The notes under the pieces are model-generated. The model saw nothing but the letters and a program-made list of their open reading frames with translations. It ran no database searches and had not been told where the DNA came from. A stretch of 64,000 nt of DNA from Candidatus Nitrotoga sp. SPKER (GTDB lineage: Bacteria > Pseudomonadota > Gammaproteobacteria > Burkholderiales > Gallionellaceae), in contig QFXG01000001.1 of the NCBI GenBank assembly GCA_003402285.1, positions 1-64,000 on the forward strand, read 5' to 3'. Every line of letters begins with the position of its first letter. Within the stretch, counting starts at the first letter, position 1. Below, piece after piece: positions 47,271-56,171 of this stretch. Position numbers and translations under genes: made by a program.

Positions 47271-47287
47271 GTTCCACAAATGGAACA
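47271..47287. promoter_or_regulatory. Palindrome overlapping the LysR start codon
   Basis: TGTTCCA (47271-47277) and TGGAACA (47281-47287) are perfect inverted arms around CAA. The inner part satisfies the LysR T-N11-A rule. The ATG at 47280 lies inside it, so binding would block translation or transcription of the LysR gene. It could also control the divergent doxX unit. Confidence 0.55.
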
Positions 47288-47708
47288 AAAAAACATCTCC
47301 GCTGACGACTGCATTCTGTTCGCTACCATCGTTGAACAAGAAAGTCTGGTGCGTGCAGCAGAATACCTCGGTATGCCTAAAGCGACGGTCTCTCGCCGCT
47401 TGACGAATCTTGAAGCAGCACTGGGGCAACGGCTACTATTGCGAACGACCCGCCGCCTCACACTCACCGATTTTGGACAGGAATTTCTTGATCATTGCCG
47501 GCGCGTCGCAGAAGAGGTCGCTACCACGCAAGATTTTGTGCGCAGTCAGGATGTGCAACCGCGCGGACAATTGCGCGTCTCCATGCCGGGTGATTATGCC
47601 AAGCAACATTTTTCACGTGCCATCACTACTTTCATCGCAACCTATCCCGAATTGAGCGGCTTACAAATTAAAGCCCCCGGCTTTGCCGGGGAATACTTAC
47701 TTCTTTAG
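47280..47708 (+). pseudogene. LysR-family transcriptional regulator, truncated
   Basis: Encodes 142 residues against about 300 for the family. The winged HTH (about residues 8-66, SLVRAAEYLGMPKATVSRRL) and the linker with the start of the effector domain (PRGQLRVSMPGDYAKQHF) are normal up to about residue 128. It then switches to a short tail encoded by a GC-rich hairpin and stops. Most of the effector-binding domain is missing, so ligand response should be lost, although DNA binding might remain. The next gene's ribosome binding site overlaps its stop, which points to a deletion that fused unrelated sequence. Confidence 0.8.
47675..47691 (+). terminator. GC-rich hairpin at the LysR truncation point
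   Basis: CCCCGGC (47675-47681) and GCCGGGG (47685-47691) pair over a TTT loop. A partial AAAG/CTTT context resembles an intrinsic terminator, but here it lies inside the truncated LysR frame and lacks a T-run. Confidence 0.5.
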
Positions 47709-47718
47709 GAGCAAGACG

Positions 47719-48267
47719 ATGAATATGCGCAATACCATAGATCGTTACGGAACACTATCTATTGGCCTCCATTGGTCAATGCTGCTACTGTTCGTTGCAG
47801 TATATGCATGCATTGAACTACATGAATTTTTCCCCAAAGGAAGCGATCTTCGCGCGACTTTGAAAATCTGGCATTTTATGTTGGGCTTATCTATTCTTAT
47901 ACTAGCCTCGATACGCTTGGTAGTTTATGTAACTGGTCTCGTTCCTCGCATTGAGCCAGATCCTCCTAAGTGGCAGATGCAATCAGCTAAGTTAATTCAT
48001 ATAGCGCTCTATGCACTGATGATCGCTATGCCGCTGGCGGGATGGCTGTTACTCAGTGCAGAAGGTAAGCCGATATCATTTTTCGGTCTGCATTTGCCGG
48101 CGCTTATTGGCAAGAGTAAATATTTGGCGGATTTGATCAAAGAGATTCATGAAGCTGGTGGTACGATAGGTTATTTTCTCATCGGCCTACATGCCGCGGC
48201 TGCGTTATATCACCATTACTTTGTGCGCGATAATACTCTGCGGCGAATGCTTCCGAACCGAGATTGA
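47719..48267 (+). CDS. Cytochrome b561 family protein
   Basis: A 182-residue dihaem cytochrome b561. Four transmembrane helices (about 14-31, 50-70, 89-110 and 149-168) carry the haem-ligand histidines seen in IGLHWSMLLL, KIWHFMLGL, LIHIALYALM and LIGLHAAAALYHHYF. It moves electrons between quinol and a periplasmic partner. The ATG at 47719, with a TTAGGAGCAAG site, is preferred to 47683. It lies immediately after the truncated LysR gene; expression may depend on that gene's promoter. Confidence 0.93.
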   Translation: MNMRNTIDRYGTLSIGLHWSMLLLFVAVYACIELHEFFPKGSDLRATLKIWHFMLGLSILILASIRLVVYVTGLVPRIEPDPPKWQMQSAKLIHIALYALMIAMPLAGWLLLSAEGKPISFFGLHLPALIGKSKYLADLIKEIHEAGGTIGYFLIGLHAAAALYHHYFVRDNTLRRMLPNRD

Positions 48268-48545: not shown

Positions 48546-50918
48546 ATGAAACTTCGCAAACTCTCAATCTGGTTTTCTGTGGGGGTACTGCTGGTATTGG
48601 GCGCAAATATGTTGTGTGTTGTGCTGATTGAACAGGCGTACAGCAAAATGATAGCTGTGCAAGAGCATCGGCAGCTGTCCATTCAATTGTCCAATGAACT
48701 GCAAAAAGAAACCGAACAACTGGCCAGTTTGGTACGCGCTTACACGACCACCGGCGAATCGCGCTATCTGTTTTATTACTACGACATTCTTGCCGTACGT
48801 CAAGGTAAAAAATCCGCCCCGGCCAAGTTTAATCCTGCGACGTATTGGGATGATGTGATTGCAGAGCGAATATTGCATGTCATACCTGAACAAGTTGAAC
48901 GCCATGTATTAACGGACAGGATGCGCGCTTTGGGTTTCAATGCACAGGAACTTCAGACGCTCACGCAGGTTTTCGCGGCCACTGAAGCCATGAAACAAAT
49001 GGAACAAATCGCTTTTGCTGCTACGCAAGGGCTTTATGATCCAGATAAACGCATATTTGTTTCTGAAGGAACGCCTCGTCTCGACTTTGCCAGCAAGCTG
49101 GTTTACAGCCAGGCCTATAACCAGCTGAAAGCTGATTTGGCACACGCTGTAGAGGGGCTGAATGAACAAGTCAGAAAGCGCACCCAAGGCGAGGTGGAGG
49201 ATGCAACCACACACTTACAGCGGCTCATTATGGTTTTGCTGGCAAGCATGGTGGTCACCATCGGTCTGGTTGGATTAGCCTTTAATACCGTACGTCGCCA
49301 GGTATTAAAACCGATCGAACGACTCAAATTGTCTGCCGATCGCTTGTCGGCAGGTGATTACACCAGCCGTACCCGACTGGATTCGACACGGGAGTCAGAG
49401 GTAGATGAATTGGCCGTATTGAGCGAGACGTTTGATAGCATGGCGCAATCAATTGAAGCCGATATCAGCCGTCGCCAAACTGTACAGTTGGCATTGGAAA
49501 AAGCGCGCAATCAAGCCGAGAATGCGACCCAAATAAAATCCATGTTTTTGGCTACGATGAGCCATGAAATCCGCACGCCCATGAACGCTATTCTGGGCAT
49601 GGCCTATTTAGCGCTAAAAACAGATCTGAATGCGCGTCAGCGCGATTATATTTCCAAGGTGCATAACGCTGCCAAGATGTTGATGGATATTATTAATAAC
49701 GTCCTGGATTTTTCCAAGATTGAAGCGGGCAAGCTGAAGCTGGAACAAAATCGCTTTCTTGTTGAGGAAGTCGTTTCCAATGTTTTGGGCTTGTTACAGC
49801 AACGAGCTTACGAAAAAGAAGTGGAATTATTGTTTGAAATGGATACCCCCCATTTGTTGGATGAAGGAGGTGCTTTGGTTGGAGATGCACTGCGTCTGGG
49901 GCAAATTCTGATTAACCTGTTATCTAATGCCATCAAGTTTACACATAGCGGTCATGTCAAATTGACGCTGGGTATTGACGCACAGGATGCCGAATCGATG
50001 ACGCTACACTTTACCGTGAGCGATACGGGTATCGGCATGACGGCGGAACAGATAAAACACTTGTTTCAAGAATTCATCCAGGCGGATGGCTCGATCACGC
50101 GAAAATACGGGGGGACTGGCCTGGGGCTGGCGATTGTCAAGCGTTTTGTCGAGCTGATGGGCGGACGTATCTGGGTGGAAAGCAAGCCCGATGCCGGTTC
50201 GAGCTTCATCTTTACCGCCCGCTTTTTACGCGCGCAACCGGGCACGGCTACCCCAGCGAACTTGTCTGGCGTACAGAACCTGCGCGTTTTAGTTGTGGAC
50301 GATCAATCTGAAGCGCGCATGGTGCTGGTCAAAATGCTGCATCATCTTGGCATGGGCCAGACACCGGAAGCCGGCATCGACAGCGCCGAGAATGGACAGA
50401 CTGCGCTAGATATGATTGCACAGGCACAGCAACAAAACCGCCCCTATCATCTGCTGATGTTGGACTGGGTCATGCCCGGCATGGATGGCGAACAAGTCTT
50501 GCGCAGTCTGCAGGTGCAGCCTCTAGACAACCCGCCTTTGCCGGTCATTGTCTCCGCCTACGATACAGATATCATGCACGATACCGTCTCCAGATTAAAT
50601 GCTCATCTATTCCTGTCCAAACCGGTATTGCCTGAGGCATTACGGCATTTACTCCAGAGTCTGTCGGAATATACGCCCGCATCGTCGCATGAACCAAGCG
50701 CACAGCCAGAGACTGTCACGCTACCGGGCCAATGGCCAGAGTGTTTGCCACAACTGAGAATATTGCTGCAAGAATGTAATGTTGAAGCGGCAGATCTATG
50801 GCAGGCTCACAAGTCTGCATTTGCACATCTGCTACCAGTGCAAACCATACATCGCATTTCGGTGGCGCTGGATAATTTTGATTTTGATATTGCCCTGACT
50901 TTGTTGCCGGAAGCTTGA
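48546..50918 (+). CDS. Hybrid sensor histidine kinase
   Basis: A 790-residue membrane kinase. TM1 (about 8-28), a periplasmic sensor domain (about 29-226) with no family I recognise, TM2 (about 227-248), a HAMP domain (about 249-313), HisKA with the phospho-accepting His340 in MSHEIRTPMNAILG, and HATPase (NLLSNAIKFTHSG, DTGIGM, KYGGTGLGLAI). A receiver domain follows with the phospho-acceptor Asp640 in LMLDWVMPGMDG. A C-terminal helical tail of about 80 residues follows the receiver. It starts a five-gene operon and would pass phosphate to the next gene's response regulator, perhaps through an Hpt protein encoded elsewhere. Confidence 0.93.
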   Translation: MKLRKLSIWFSVGVLLVLGANMLCVVLIEQAYSKMIAVQEHRQLSIQLSNELQKETEQLASLVRAYTTTGESRYLFYYYDILAVRQGKKSAPAKFNPATYWDDVIAERILHVIPEQVERHVLTDRMRALGFNAQELQTLTQVFAATEAMKQMEQIAFAATQGLYDPDKRIFVSEGTPRLDFASKLVYSQAYNQLKADLAHAVEGLNEQVRKRTQGEVEDATTHLQRLIMVLLASMVVTIGLVGLAFNTVRRQVLKPIERLKLSADRLSAGDYTSRTRLDSTRESEVDELAVLSETFDSMAQSIEADISRRQTVQLALEKARNQAENATQIKSMFLATMSHEIRTPMNAILGMAYLALKTDLNARQRDYISKVHNAAKMLMDIINNVLDFSKIEAGKLKLEQNRFLVEEVVSNVLGLLQQRAYEKEVELLFEMDTPHLLDEGGALVGDALRLGQILINLLSNAIKFTHSGHVKLTLGIDAQDAESMTLHFTVSDTGIGMTAEQIKHLFQEFIQADGSITRKYGGTGLGLAIVKRFVELMGGRIWVESKPDAGSSFIFTARFLRAQPGTATPANLSGVQNLRVLVVDDQSEARMVLVKMLHHLGMGQTPEAGIDSAENGQTALDMIAQAQQQNRPYHLLMLDWVMPGMDGEQVLRSLQVQPLDNPPLPVIVSAYDTDIMHDTVSRLNAHLFLSKPVLPEALRHLLQSLSEYTPASSHEPSAQPETVTLPGQWPECLPQLRILLQECNVEAADLWQAHKSAFAHLLPVQTIHRISVALDNFDFDIALTLLPEA

Positions 50919-50947
50919 AACTTTATAACATAGCGGAGTAAACCCCC

Positions 50948-51886
50948 ATGTTTGTTGAAACTGAACGCGCGACTATCTTACTTGTGGACGATGTGCCCGC
51001 TAATCTGAGTCTGCTGAGCAGCATCTTACGTGAGGATTATCGTATCCAGTTGGCGACCAGCGGTGCTAAAGCCCTGGAGCTGGTTGCGACCAGCTTGCCG
51101 GATTTGATTTTGCTGGATGTAATGATGCCGGAGATGGATGGTTATGAAGTCTGCAAGCGCCTTAAAGCCAATCCAGATACCTGTGATATCCCCGTGCTGT
51201 TCGTTACTGCCCGTAACCAGACCGAAGATGAAGAACTTGGACTGACGCTGGGCGCAATGGACTATATTCACAAGCCGATTAGTCCGCCGATTATCAAAGC
51301 ACGGGTACGCAACCACATTGCGCTCAAACTGCAAACCGATGCGTTAAAACGCCTTTCGTTTATCGATGGATTAACCCAGGTTGCCAATCGACGTCGTTTC
51401 GACGACATGCTGAGCAATGAGCTGCGGCGCGCTGCGCGACAGAAACATGAACTATCCTTGTTGATGCTGGACGTGGATTACTTCAAACTGTTTAACGATC
51501 ATTATGGTCACGGCTTGGGTGACCAATGTTTGACGCGGGTCGCCCAAGCCATGCAAGCCGAGATAAACCGTCCGATGGATTTGATAGCGCGTTACGGCGG
51601 TGAAGAGTTTGTCGTTTTGCTACCAGAAACTGATCTGGAAGATGCGCGTAAGATGGCCGAATCCTTGCGAAAAACCGTTGCTGCCATGCAAATTTCTCAT
51701 GCCCACTCACTGGCCGCATCGCATATCACGATCAGTATTGGGGTCGCTTGCAATACTCAAAGTGAAACAAATTCAGCGGCAGAGTTGCTCAAACTGGCCG
51801 ATCAGGCGCTCTACCTGGCCAAACAATCCGGACGCAATCAGGTAAAATCCTGGCATAACAAAAAACCCATTTCGAGGAACGTCTAA
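50948..51886 (+). CDS. Response regulator with diguanylate cyclase (REC-GGDEF) output
   Basis: A 312-residue PleD-like protein. The receiver domain (about 8-125) has the acceptor aspartate in LILLDVMMPEMDG (near Asp58) and the conserved lysine in DYIHKPISPP. The GGDEF domain (about 140-305) has an intact active site, YGGEEFVVLLPE, so c-di-GMP synthesis is likely. An inhibitory-site RxxD was not seen by eye. It starts 29 nt after the kinase and is its obvious partner. Its stop is 2 nt from the AttH-like gene. Confidence 0.94.
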   Translation: MFVETERATILLVDDVPANLSLLSSILREDYRIQLATSGAKALELVATSLPDLILLDVMMPEMDGYEVCKRLKANPDTCDIPVLFVTARNQTEDEELGLTLGAMDYIHKPISPPIIKARVRNHIALKLQTDALKRLSFIDGLTQVANRRRFDDMLSNELRRAARQKHELSLLMLDVDYFKLFNDHYGHGLGDQCLTRVAQAMQAEINRPMDLIARYGGEEFVVLLPETDLEDARKMAESLRKTVAAMQISHAHSLAASHITISIGVACNTQSETNSAAELLKLADQALYLAKQSGRNQVKSWHNKKPISRNV

Positions 51887-51888
51887 GC

Positions 51889-52977
51889 ATGCGCATAATC
51901 TGGCAAAAATTACCCTGGCTCATCGCGCTGATTCTGGCAATGATCGTTTTGAAATACCCACCGTTATTGCCGTGGATGCTCTTGGTGACGGCTATTTTTA
52001 TTTGCTGGCTTAGCCCAAAGCGTGGCCTGATCGGTCCGGTGACTTTGCCCGCAGACGATGCATTTTTACCTACCGAGCAGGTGCAGTGGTGGTACTGGAC
52101 GGGCCATCTGGAAACGGAAGACGGTCAGCATTTTGGTTTTGAAGTGGTGTTCTTTAGCTTCGATGCTTTTTTGTTCATGCGCGATCAATTGGTACAAGCA
52201 GCTATTACTGACGTGAACGGCAATCGCTTTGAATTCAAGGAATTTGTCGAATTTCATCTCCCCAATAAAACCCCAAATGGCTTCAAGCTCAGTGCTGGGG
52301 GAAACAATTTGATCACCGCGGTGGGCGGCAATGGTACAGATCATCTGCACAGCGCAATCGGTGATTACGTGCTGGATATTGACCTGCAATCAACCAAATC
52401 CCCCGCGCTGCATTACGGTGGCGATGCACATCCCTATATTTTTGGCGGCTACACCTACTACTACTCGCGTACTCATATGGCGACGACTGGCACCTTGAGT
52501 ATTAAAGGCAAGTCTTACAAAGTCACCGGAACCAGCTGGTTCGACCGACAGTATGGCGAACTCTTTCAAGCGATCGATAAAGGCTGGCAATGGTTTGCCA
52601 TTGAACTGGCAGACAACCGTCAAATTATGCTATTCGATTTTAACGGTGAAGAAGCCACAGTAGAAAAATCTGGATCGATCACCGACGCACAGGGACGAAC
52701 TACAACGCTCGCCGCGCATCAATTCGACGTGATTATACTGGGTCACTGGACCAGTCCCACCACTGGCTGCACCTATCCCGCTGGCTGGACGGTAACAATC
52801 GGCAACGAAATTTTCACCGTGCAGCCTGCTGTATCAGACCAGGAGCTGCGCGGTAACCACAGTTTCTGGGTTGGCCCGGTCTATTGGGAAGGTGCGTGCA
52901 ACATTAGCGGCGCAGTCAGCGGCCAGGCTTATGTGGAGCTAAATGGCTATTGCAAATGTCCAAAGCCTGAGTATTGA
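51889..52977 (+). CDS. AttH/CrtC-like lipocalin-domain protein with N-terminal membrane helices
   Basis: A 362-residue protein. Two hydrophobic segments lie at about 9-42, followed by a CrtC N-terminal lipocalin domain: EQVQWWYWTGHLETEDGQHF, the HPYIFGGYTYYYSRTHM strand and SWFDRQYGELF. Relatives include AttH and carotenoid 1,2-hydratase CrtC, but no carotenoid genes are near, so a lipid or hydrophobic-ligand role is as likely. It lies inside the signalling operon, 2 nt after the diguanylate cyclase. The porin gene follows about 130 nt later. Confidence 0.85.
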   Translation: MRIIWQKLPWLIALILAMIVLKYPPLLPWMLLVTAIFICWLSPKRGLIGPVTLPADDAFLPTEQVQWWYWTGHLETEDGQHFGFEVVFFSFDAFLFMRDQLVQAAITDVNGNRFEFKEFVEFHLPNKTPNGFKLSAGGNNLITAVGGNGTDHLHSAIGDYVLDIDLQSTKSPALHYGGDAHPYIFGGYTYYYSRTHMATTGTLSIKGKSYKVTGTSWFDRQYGELFQAIDKGWQWFAIELADNRQIMLFDFNGEEATVEKSGSITDAQGRTTTLAAHQFDVIILGHWTSPTTGCTYPAGWTVTIGNEIFTVQPAVSDQELRGNHSFWVGPVYWEGACNISGAVSGQAYVELNGYCKCPKPEY

Positions 52978-53107
52978 GCAAACCTGCCAAGTACAAGTCA
53001 AACGGAAAAGCCAAAAAAAGCCAAACGGTTATAATTTGCCGCTTTTAAATAGAATCGTTGAATTCTATAATCCTGCAGTCGCCTTGATCTGCCTCAAACT
53101 AATACGA

Positions 53108-54421
53108 ATGGCCATGCAAAAGCTGCTTAAAAATAGTGTGTGCACGCTTGCCTGCCTCTTGCTCGGCATGGTTAGTCTATCTACGCAAGCCGTCGATGTT
53201 TCCCTGTCGGGTTATGGCACGATGGGCTATGCTATCTCCGACAAAGACTACACTTACCAGCGTTACATTGATAACAAAGGCAGCTTCGAACGCGACACCC
53301 TATTCGGCGCACAATTAAATGCTCAATTCAATCCCGCATGGAGCGCGACGTTACAAGTCCAAGCAGCACCGCCTGCATTGCTAAGTGATCACCCAAACTG
53401 GCAACCAACCCTTACATGGGCATTTTTATCCTACCGTCCAGCTGACGATTGGTTGTTTCGCGTAGGGAAATTACGTATTCCCTTTTACTTGCATTCCGAG
53501 AATGCCAATATAGGCACGACGTACGCGCCAGCTCGCTTGCCGGTTGAGGTTTATGCCTCCGCATCGACGGTGAACTTTATTGGGGCATCGTTCGCCAAGA
53601 CCTGGCAGCTCAACGACAACGAATTTATTCTTGATGGCTATTGGGGAAATGCCGTGAAGGAATCATGGCGCTTCTATGCGCGTGACCCTGGTAATGTTCT
53701 CACTAAAAACGGTGCGGCGGGTGAATTCTTTGCACCCTTAGTGATCGAGTCAAAAGGACTGCGGTTGAGCTTGAATCGCGACGGAAACACCTTTTTGGCG
53801 GGTATGCATTTCGCCGATACCACGGCTCGCAACGGCACCACACTGGGGCCATCGACGTATGTGCCCGCGCCGGCTGGCGGTTGCGCACCTATCGGTATTC
53901 CGCCAGCATTTATTGGTAATTATTACTGTCCTGCTGCGAACGGCCCATCCAGTATAAAAACCGTTACTACCAATTTTGGTGCCAGTATTGATTTGGGGAA
54001 CGGCTTTCGCACAATAGGCGAGTATGTCAGACGTAAAAATGAAGGCTCAACCCTTTCCCCCGACAGCAAAGGTTTTTACCTGAGCCTGCAAAAAGAAATC
54101 GGTCACTGGACACCCTACCTGACCTACGCCAAGCTAACCACGAAAAACCGTGACTTATATCAGGCGGTAAATAGTGCTCAGACGATTATCCCGGCGGTTA
54201 ATGATTTACAGCGCAATCTGGCCGATACCATGGTGGTGTATGACCAAAACACATGGGCGCTCGGTACCGCCTACTCACTTAGCATCAATAGCAAAATCAA
54301 AGCCGAATGGTCTGTCGTAGAAACCGGTATTGCATCCAGTTTTATTGATGCACCGCCGGGTGGAAAATCCGGTGATCAACGCATCAATATGTTTTCTCTC
54401 TCTTACAACTTTACGTTCTAA
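53108..54421 (+). CDS. Outer-membrane porin-like protein
   Basis: A 437-residue outer-membrane protein. A signal peptide (about 1-28, ending TQA-VDVS) is followed by a beta-barrel with VSLSGYGTMGYAISDKD, DDWLFRVGKLRIPFYLHSEN (a porin-like constriction strand), and a C-terminal FSLSYNFTF ending in phenylalanine. The frame is open from 52943 but this part overlaps the AttH-like gene, so ATG 53108 or 53114 is the likely start. A loop rich in G, P and C lies near residues 250-285. Its partner gene for a periplasmic binding protein starts 11 nt later, suggesting coupled uptake or sensing of an anion. Confidence 0.85.
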   Translation: MAMQKLLKNSVCTLACLLLGMVSLSTQAVDVSLSGYGTMGYAISDKDYTYQRYIDNKGSFERDTLFGAQLNAQFNPAWSATLQVQAAPPALLSDHPNWQPTLTWAFLSYRPADDWLFRVGKLRIPFYLHSENANIGTTYAPARLPVEVYASASTVNFIGASFAKTWQLNDNEFILDGYWGNAVKESWRFYARDPGNVLTKNGAAGEFFAPLVIESKGLRLSLNRDGNTFLAGMHFADTTARNGTTLGPSTYVPAPAGGCAPIGIPPAFIGNYYCPAANGPSSIKTVTTNFGASIDLGNGFRTIGEYVRRKNEGSTLSPDSKGFYLSLQKEIGHWTPYLTYAKLTTKNRDLYQAVNSAQTIIPAVNDLQRNLADTMVVYDQNTWALGTAYSLSINSKIKAEWSVVETGIASSFIDAPPGGKSGDQRINMFSLSYNFTF

Positions 54422-54432
54422 GGGAGACAGTC

Positions 54433-54843
54433 ATGAAGAAATTAAAATTCAAACTGATCTCCGCGCTGCTGGCGCTTGTGATAGGTGAGGCGCATGCAGA
54501 GAGCGTGGTTGTCATCGGCCATGCGGGTCTAAGTAAGTTGGACGCAAATACCGTACAAAGAATATTTACCGGCAAGATTATCGAAATTGATGGTGTGCAT
54601 GTCACAGCAGTAAATCTCAAAGCAGGCGCATTGCGTGATCGTTTTTTGCAACACTATCTAAATCAAAAAGATGATAAATACACAGCTTATTGGACGGTGC
54701 GTCGCTTCATCGGCAAAGGTATTCCACCAAAAGAACTATCGAATGCCGCCGAAGTCATTAATTTTGTCCAAACCACACCTGGTGCCATCGGTTATATCGA
54801 TGAAAACGAATTGAAACCGGACTTGAACGTGGTAAGTCGTTAA
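54433..54843 (+). CDS. Small PstS-like periplasmic substrate-binding protein
   Basis: A 136-residue exported protein. A signal peptide (about 1-22, ending AHA-ESVV) is followed by a half-size PBP domain of the phosphate-binding PstS-like type, with LDANTVQRIFTGKI (about 36-49) and VQTTPGAIGYIDENEL (about 114-129). Full PstS is about 320 residues, so this is a one-domain relative. No ABC permease or ATPase is adjacent, so it may sense rather than feed a transporter, possibly presenting ligand to the kinase's periplasmic domain. It has a GGGAGACAG site and is the last gene of the operon. Confidence 0.87.
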   Translation: MKKLKFKLISALLALVIGEAHAESVVVIGHAGLSKLDANTVQRIFTGKIIEIDGVHVTAVNLKAGALRDRFLQHYLNQKDDKYTAYWTVRRFIGKGIPPKELSNAAEVINFVQTTPGAIGYIDENELKPDLNVVSR

Positions 54844-54935: not shown

Positions 54936-56171
54936 GATGGTGCGGGTTGGTCGGATTAAAAATAAAGTTTAATGGATTTTTGCTAATCAGTTTTGAGTTT
55001 ATTTTTTATGATTCTAGTCTCAAGAATTAGTGCTTTTCCGGTGTCGTTTTTCGATCAGTTATGCCCGGCGTTTTGGTTTTACAAAACGTTCAAATAATTC
55101 ACTCTTGGCGCGTTGCATTTCCTGAGCCGCAGCCAAGTCTGTTTTAGACTTCGCCAGTGCCTGCAAAGCTTCCAGCGTGATGCCCTTTTTGAGAATGACC
55201 CAACCCTTTGCCTTCAACTGTACCAAGCACTCCAGCGGAGTCTTCACATCCTCGTCTTTATAGCGCTTTATGATTTTGCCTTTCGGGCTAATGATCTCGG
55301 TCGCAAACATGCACGGGCGGTGAAAATTGAGCCATGGATTGAACGTTTCCTGATAGAACGCATTGATGGGTTTAGCGTACTTCTGGGGGATATGTTCGTA
55401 GCCCATGTGCTTGCGCACCACACTGGCATTCTTGCTCTCTGCCAGCGCGTTATCGTTACTGTGGCGCGAGCGCGATTTGGTTTGTTCGATGCGCAGTTTC
55501 TCAAGGATTCTCGCCACTGGGCCGTTGATGTACTCGGAACCGTTGTCCGAGTGAAAGCCCAAAATCACAAACGGAAACTGTTCGATGATTAACTCCAGTA
55601 CGGGCAACAAAAATGCCTCGCTGATACCCTGCACGCACGCCTCGACTTGCCACTGGCTCACAGCGTCAACGCAGGTGATGTGGTACACGCCCTTGATGCC
55701 GTCAAGATCGCCCTGGCGGACGGTGTCGATACGCACAAAACCGACCCTCCCATTGGGGCGTGGCACTTTGCGTACTCCGATGGAATTGCACACCGGATGG
55801 GTCTTGATGAAAATCACCCGCAAGGCTTGATAACCCGTGCTTTTGCGAAGGTTGTACAGGTGCGAAACAGACAACGTAGACAGTCGCTTATAGCGTGTAT
55901 CGCCATAGACGCTGTAAGCACGCTGCAAGAGGTGCGCTATTGCCGGGCCACACACGTCTTCATTGGCTTTGTCCATCTCGACGAGCAGTGCGATATCGAT
56001 AGCCGTGTATTTGCGCGCAAAGGGAGCCGCAGGCGCACGATAGCGTTTGCAGGTGGCGTGTTCGTTCATCGTTCATACCCTCCTCGTATGCAGGCTCTGG
56101 CTGCATTTCAGCAGCACGGCCCAAGTTACCGTTCGGTTTGATTGAACAAGAAATGGGCAACCGCACCTATC
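54936..56171. mobile_element. Insertion sequence with integrase-core transposase
   Basis: A 1.2-kb element around the DDE transposase at 55059-56069. Candidate imperfect terminal repeats are GATGGTGCGGGTTG (54936-54949) and, on the other strand, GATAGGTGCGGTTG (56171-56158), which match apart from one shifted base. I could not find a target-site duplication by eye, so the boundaries are tentative. Confidence 0.5.
55059..56069 (-). CDS. IS transposase, integrase catalytic core (IS481/ISNCY-like)
   Basis: A 336-residue rve-type transposase. The DDE triad is visible as Asp115 (FVRIDTVRQGD), Asp175 (FHSDNGSEYI) and Glu211 (NALAESKNASVVRK). An ATG at 56069 with a GAGGAGGG site is the likely start; relatives I recall have a longer N-terminal HTH region, so this copy may be shortened or use a separate upstream frame. 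No internal stop is seen, so it may be active. Long antisense frames over this gene are shadows. Confidence 0.88.
   Translation of the reverse strand: MNEHATCKRYRAPAAPFARKYTAIDIALLVEMDKANEDVCGPAIAHLLQRAYSVYGDTRYKRLSTLSVSHLYNLRKSTGYQALRVIFIKTHPVCNSIGVRKVPRPNGRVGFVRIDTVRQGDLDGIKGVYHITCVDAVSQWQVEACVQGISEAFLLPVLELIIEQFPFVILGFHSDNGSEYINGPVARILEKLRIEQTKSRSRHSNDNALAESKNASVVRKHMGYEHIPQKYAKPINAFYQETFNPWLNFHRPCMFATEIISPKGKIIKRYKDEDVKTPLECLVQLKAKGWVILKKGITLEALQALAKSKTDLAAAQEMQRAKSELFERFVKPKRRA

Follow-up and report, generated by a model that had tools for sequence, protein, structure and literature searches.

Candidatus Nitrotoga is a nitrite-oxidising bacterium. We analyzed a 64,000-nucleotide (nt) stretch of the genome of Candidatus Nitrotoga sp. 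SPKER, hereafter the window, and in it a locus that joins a sensor kinase, an enzyme of cyclic di-GMP (c-di-GMP) metabolism, a lipocalin-like protein, a porin and a small protein with a PstS-like fold. The five open reading frames run in the same direction from 48546 to 54843, with intergenic gaps of 29, 2, 130 and 11 nt, in agreement with a first-pass annotation of this DNA. The first frame (48546-50918, + strand, like every feature of the locus) encodes a protein of 790 amino acids (aa) with the Pfam architecture HAMP-HisKA-HATPase_c-REC and the H-box SHEIRTPMN; HisKA, HATPase_c and REC all score above the Pfam cut-off, which identifies a hybrid histidine kinase, present in 8/8 relatives. 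Its residues 31-226 (31-225 at 48636-49220), flanked by two hydrophobic segments, have no assigned Pfam domain and constitute the periplasmic sensor, a predicted helical bundle. The second frame (50948-51886, 312 aa) combines REC and GGDEF domains in Pfam, with a GGEEF motif and an RxxD motif (RPMD) in the translation, and encodes a REC-GGDEF response regulator, a putative diguanylate cyclase. It is followed by a CrtC/AttH-like two-domain lipocalin protein (51889-52977, 362 aa, Pfam CrtC and Lipocalin_9) and by a porin-family protein of 437 aa (53108-54421), whose longest open reading frame begins at 52943; the start that precedes the signal peptide lies at 53108 or 53114. The last frame (54433-54843) encodes 136 aa with a signal peptide. 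Among the eight frames around it that were scanned with Pfam, no ABC (ATP-binding cassette) transporter part of the PstS-linked kind was found, as the first-pass annotation had also noted.

That annotation described the last product as a mini-PstS protein. Complete PstS phosphate-binding proteins (PF12849, TIGR00975) consist of two lobes that enclose a ligand cleft. The PstS-like fold is indeed there, but it corresponds to a single lobe, lobe II, and not to a small complete protein. A profile of 33 relatives detects solved PstS proteins with an expectation value (E) of 6.5e-11, and it matches mostly their second lobe, for example residues 72-183 of 265 in 4exl (E 1.5e-10); 4h1x, with a best stretch at 226-263 of 265, is an unexplained exception. 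The AlphaFold model has a mean predicted local distance difference test score (pLDDT) of 88.4; beyond the first 30 residues the block means lie between 92 and 98. It superimposes on 4gd5 with a Z score of 13.2 and a root-mean-square deviation of 1.8 over 102 residues, and aligns with residues 76-209 of the 321 of E. coli PstS, where one lobe and not two is covered. The window protein has no Pfam match, 12 of the 33 relatives match PF12849, and another such protein of the same genome matches positions 94-192 of the 267 of this family. A complete small PstS was rejected, the model covering one lobe only, and we call the protein half-PstS.

The porin of the window matches Porin_4 with 22.8 bits, below the cut-off of 27 (E 9e-5), and 7 of 16 relatives match this family at E up to 0.01. 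Compared with solved structures, the profile of the porin family finds OprP as its best relative (E 1.6e-8); a narrower profile (A2), limited to the subfamily of the window, found nothing significant among them. Porin and half-PstS form a conserved core. With a porin profile grown over those very loci, half-PstS has a gene of the porin family on its own strand and no more than 300 nt away in 127 of 137 cases (Nitrotoga 8/8, relatives 27/28, class sample 60/65, named loci 32/36), the porin being first in 107 pairs and second in 20, and the partnership claimed at the outset between a porin and a PstS-like protein is thus borne out. The count covers 137 loci (8 of Nitrotoga, 32 of relatives, 60 of the class sample and 37 named ones) and 137 called half-PstS genes, some loci having several and seven having none. 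These seven (L030, L037, L038, L095, L139, L144, L165) were dropped from the pair count, together with two proteins over 260 aa and seven named loci from genomes that had already been fetched (L130-L134, L147, L141). The class sample (L070-L129) was taken from the best-scoring part of the class-wide match list and has 60 regions, several genomes contributing more than one. That list comes from a search in which the half-PstS family had matches in 76 of 274 genomes of the class at E up to 1e-6, at least three of them (G137, G276, G341) perhaps through a longer PstS-like protein only. An independent porin profile, made from the window's subfamily only and applied to older gene calls with strand not required, places a porin next to 42 of 61 class-sample half-PstS genes, and 45 of its 52 porin matches among 686 genes adjoin a half-PstS. 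In two loci the half-PstS is the C-terminal part of a longer protein (L214:4241-6265, - strand; L215:3231-4937, + strand), with a porin gene beside both. Both long proteins combine a hydrophobic segment with an extended linker of low complexity and are apparently membrane-anchored; that of L215 has a DnaJ (J) domain over the cut-off and that of L214 has no Pfam match. Such a linker would suit a tether towards the outer membrane. A porin/half-PstS fusion at L223, in which a single frame runs from a truncated porin into a half-PstS, was left unused: its genome comes in 580 contigs with 7% contamination, and it is perhaps an artefact.

The five-gene arrangement as a whole is more than chance. A close half-PstS occurs in 9 of the 19 genomes of the genus, that of SPKER included (E <=6.1e-76), and the identical nine possess a close kinase sensor (E <=8.5e-91) and the CrtC-like protein (E <=2.2e-228); inheritance of the three within the genus is all-or-none. 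Two genus genomes, G004 and G016, give only a partial CrtC-family match of 32-33%. The search for this gene order in other genomes, which the first-pass annotation had called for, found the linkage conserved: the order kinase, REC-GGDEF, CrtC, porin, half-PstS is kept in 8/8 Nitrotoga relatives fetched, and all five genes also stand in order at four Thiobacillus/Sulfuriferula/Hydrogenophilales loci, termed Hydrogenophilales-type below. The gap between porin and half-PstS is 11 nt in the 12 loci measured, eight from Nitrotoga and four of the Hydrogenophilales type. One of the eight relatives (G009, L023 / L130) has an in-frame TAG in the CrtC-like gene, and its half-PstS, porin, cyclase and kinase frames are open.

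The link between the PstS-like protein and the unassigned periplasmic domain of the kinase, another element of the initial description, is supported by co-inheritance. The window-type sensor is present in 34 of 44 named loci that had been picked by half-PstS motifs alone, and in 8 of the 10 loci in which it is missing the contig reaches no more than 5.1 kb upstream. Conversely, a search of 300 genomes of the order found a close sensor in six (E <=5.8e-57): half-PstS lies 5.3-5.8 kb downstream in four of these (G000, G388, G439, G543), and the contigs of G498 and G520 are too short to reach the expected position. A close half-PstS and porin in G485 stand on a 3.5-kb contig, too short to judge the sensor. 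Distances were compared across 21 loci with all five parts, in which Nitrotoga is represented by the window and L025 only; any two of the parts are correlated, with coefficients between 0.76 and 0.93. Partial correlations are 0.53 between porin and half-PstS, 0.35 between half-PstS and sensor, 0.64 between sensor and kinase core, and -0.01 between porin and sensor, which suggests a chain running from porin through half-PstS and sensor to the kinase core. This pattern is compatible with an adaptor and proves nothing. The sensor is a candidate for the four-helix-bundle (4HB) type. Its model (pLDDT 82.0) gives Z scores of 13.1, the best, with the ligand domain of MCP2201, 10.7 with QseE-QseG, 10.6 with LytS-XylFII and 9.2 with TorS-TorT. 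Helical models often reach such values, and Foldseek returned no match for this one at E up to 0.001. Nine distant homologues of the sensor were scanned: six are chemoreceptors, two GGDEF-EAL proteins and one a hybrid kinase. The SPKER genome itself carries a distant copy in a GGDEF-EAL protein (L189:6044-9274, contig C17), with no half-PstS nearby.

Signalling genes are enriched beside porin/half-PstS pairs in comparison with controls. We considered as neighbours 77 same-strand genes of at least 110 aa lying within two genes and 150-nt steps of half-PstS; their domains include MCPsignal (16), Response_reg (13), GGDEF (12), HATPase_c (11), EAL (10) and HD_5 (3). The 70 control genes, taken at least four genes away and drawn from 259 genes, gave HATPase_c (4), HisKA (3) and Response_reg (2); the control list holds the 25 commonest families, without MCPsignal, GGDEF and EAL, for which single control matches are possible. 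The sensory parts are diverse, with dCache_3 in seven and dCache_1 in five of the 77 neighbours, and the profile of the window's sensor, run across L029-L129, matches in L029 only. A single sensor domain common to all pair-linked receptors was on these grounds rejected at the sequence level. A second module in the SPKER genome (contig C24, L057, 3341-8212) comprises half-PstS, porin, a dCache_3 kinase with Hpt and a GGDEF protein. At another locus (L054:11772-13202) the output beside the pair is a REC protein that bears an adenylate/guanylate cyclase domain. Plasmids carry the pair as well: in the 4 records viewed of 18 with half-PstS, a chemoreceptor adjoins porin and half-PstS in two, one from Pseudoalteromonas and one from P. 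aeruginosa, the Caballeronia record has a 'hypothetical' gene in the porin's position followed by an EAL protein, and the Alteromonas plasmid (L204) has no receptor near half-PstS. In this last plasmid half-PstS adjoins a hypothetical gene and lies near a type IV CRISPR set. Finally, in L216:136-2658 and L217:2079-4676 a complete two-lobe PstS (PF12849) is fused to a PAS-HisKA-HATPase_c-REC kinase, so that the PstS fold can serve as the input of a kinase. In the class search 12 half-PstS profile matches came from one genome (G203), and these include at least one kinase with a fused complete PstS.

The output attached to the sensor varies. Regulators of the REC-HD-GYP type degrade c-di-GMP and those of the REC-GGDEF type make it; of the 36 distinct sensor-bearing loci, the window excluded, 16 have the former, 12 the latter, and neither is in view in 8. 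The first-pass proposal of a c-di-GMP output therefore stands as regards the presence of a c-di-GMP enzyme, but not as regards a fixed type. Judging the direction from this distribution, the degrading type seems to have been exchanged for the making type. The CrtC-like gene is found in exactly the 12 loci with REC-GGDEF, and these loci and the window form one clade in each of three trees (support 0.99 for the sensor, 1.00 for the porin and 0.95 for half-PstS), so that the co-occurrence of CrtC and REC-GGDEF (12/12) counts as one event. The CrtC-like protein is a one-clade add-on outside the core circuit, was rejected as a core part for this confinement, and fits the circuit as poorly as the annotation had remarked. 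Its identity between the window and the four Hydrogenophilales-type loci is 83-84%, against 64-81% for kinase, cyclase, porin and half-PstS, so that it is under constraint. The AttH structure paper suggests lipid binding (PMC2954199), and a study of the carotenoid 1,2-hydratase CrtC gives His, Trp, Tyr and Asp as its catalytic residues (PMC4717167).

We propose that the porin and half-PstS are a modular two-gene signal-input cassette, in which half-PstS is the adaptor between porin and kinase sensor, and we would give this reading a probability of about one half. The gene linkage, the all-or-none inheritance within the genus, the single-lobe fold of the model, the signalling domains intact by profile and the exchanged outputs are observed. 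Half-PstS would be a soluble periplasmic protein, one side of which would meet the porin or the porin's cargo and the other the helical sensor; these contacts, like the stimulus and the sign of the response, we infer. At the Nitrotoga locus the cassette would be dedicated to the conserved periplasmic domain of the kinase. Docking of half-PstS would alter kinase activity, phosphate would then move to the REC-GGDEF protein, and c-di-GMP would be made. Elsewhere the same cassette could feed chemoreceptors, GGDEF/EAL proteins and other kinases. Several observations weigh against this proposal. A kinase, GGDEF or REC gene lies in the run of only 13 of 65 class-sample half-PstS genes (chemoreceptors uncounted), and many pairs are thus left with no recognised partner. 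Two named loci, L139 and L152, have 8 kb upstream yet no such sensor, and distant sensor homologues were without half-PstS in 14/14 loci viewed. Moreover, the partial correlation of 0.43 between porin and REC is unexplained by a chain, and the correlation of half-PstS with the sensor exceeds that with the kinase core in only 74.6% of subsamples.

A different answer, unlikely in our opinion, would be classical ligand presentation: phosphate or a related oxyanion would enter through the porin and be bound by the PstS-like protein, whose loaded form would in turn stimulate the kinase. The fold of half-PstS and the distant relationship of the porin family to the phosphate porin OprP agree with this idea, and the P. 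aeruginosa chemoreceptor CtpL is stimulated by PstS loaded with phosphate (PMC4926252). However, a separate complete PstS is encoded on contig C4 of the genome, and phosphate-related neighbours of half-PstS are few, with metallophosphoesterases among 2 of the 77, too weak a phosphate theme to be retained. The protein has, in addition, one lobe, and in the set of phosphate-ligand residues that we assume for PstS, which includes an arginine of lobe II, the lobe-I positions presumably fall outside the aligned range 76-209. At the position of the lobe-II arginine the window has Leu62, and 4 of 33 relatives have Arg (the other positions stand beside a gap). With one lobe and this leucine, capture of a ligand by half-PstS alone is unlikely. 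Of the earlier suggestion that porin and mini-PstS capture a ligand and show it to the kinase, the linkage of the two proteins is thus retained and the classical capture is doubtful. As judged from sequence and model, half-PstS would not be a phosphate-binding protein of known kind, an altered or shared site being possible.

One would also wonder whether half-PstS could report the state or assembly of the porin or of the outer membrane instead of a solute, akin to the lipoproteins acting on QseE; we hold this to be quite unlikely. It would account for a porin so close to half-PstS (127/137) and for the membrane-anchored forms on a long linker, and the sensor model resembles helical sensors including that of QseE, solved with the outer-membrane lipoprotein QseG (PMC12691602). 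On the other hand, chemoreceptor partners (16/77) more often follow solutes, and the half-PstS of the window has a plain signal peptide with no lipid anchor.

The locus had also been described as one operon. Its co-directional linkage holds, but a terminator-like hairpin stands between CrtC and porin in 4/4 Hydrogenophilales-type loci (-5.6 to -16.9 kcal/mol), so that two transcription units are likely there. The CrtC-porin gaps of Nitrotoga contain no convincing hairpin, and promoter and terminator scans of the region stayed at chance level; a TATAAT-like element at 53030-53035 (+ strand), a putative promoter, is kept in that gap in 9/9 Nitrotoga sequences. Porin and half-PstS may form a separate transcription unit, which by itself is no argument against one circuit. 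That they are simply a co-regulated pair serving import or envelope upkeep, controlled by or carried with signalling genes, would suit this element, these hairpins and the many class-sample pairs with no recognised signalling gene in the run, but is very unlikely given that signalling genes are enriched over controls and that the periplasmic sensor of the kinase travels with the half-PstS subfamily. As for the surroundings, a transposase-like gene with an integrase core (rve, below cut-off) lies directly downstream of the five genes (55059-56069, - strand). Upstream, a LysR-type gene (47280-47708) encodes 142 aa, shortened in comparison with the 301 aa of relative L026, and its end overlaps a cytochrome b561 frame (47683-48267).

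A broader and more tentative hypothesis, which we consider possible and rather less than probable, is that the signal-input cassette is a widespread trans-envelope device of Proteobacteria, in which the porin would be the true receptor and half-PstS a periplasmic messenger, interchangeable across chemotaxis, c-di-GMP and two-component pathways and hidden under the name 'phosphate ABC transporter substrate-binding protein'. This name is given to the product in 12 of the 18 plasmid records with half-PstS. No porin/half-PstS signal pair is described in the open PubMed Central literature searched, subscription papers being outside the scope of the search. Should the pair be a signal input, this would correct a common misannotation and provide a testable route from an outer-membrane channel to chemotaxis, c-di-GMP control and kinases. 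Within the window's subfamily, one sensor associated with c-di-GMP-degrading (16/36) or c-di-GMP-making (12/36) regulators offers a natural case of output reversal. Compared with the earlier picture, what changes is that the protein is half a PstS, that porin and half-PstS are a reusable core, and that the output is exchangeable.

Parallels can be drawn with several known systems. In YfiB-YfiR-YfiN/TpbB, outer-membrane and periplasmic partners govern c-di-GMP production as in the circuit proposed for Nitrotoga, but the families are not known to be related and YfiN is itself the cyclase. Phosphate uptake through OprO/OprP and Pst involves distant relatives of both partners, the porin family being distantly kin to OprP and half-PstS to PstS; unlike it, the Nitrotoga set has no ABC transporter gene, only half of a PstS, and signalling partners. 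In TorT-TorS and XylFII-LytS, likewise, a hybrid or sensor kinase with a helical domain in the periplasm is encoded next to a binding protein of its own; these binding proteins have two lobes and their complexes are solved, whereas the Nitrotoga set has one lobe and a porin and is known from linkage and correlation. In QseG-QseE, an accessory protein linked to the outer membrane acts on a helical kinase sensor, but QseG is a lipoprotein (PMC12691602), and its counterpart in Nitrotoga would be a soluble half-PstS with a porin. Lastly, PstS-CtpL of P. aeruginosa, a system of phosphate chemotaxis, provides a PstS-type periplasmic input to a membrane receptor that does not bind the ligand directly (PMC4926252). 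There, the PstS is a complete high-affinity protein shared with the transporter, whereas the Nitrotoga set has a single lobe with no adjoining ABC transporter, a porin as partner and a kinase with a c-di-GMP output.

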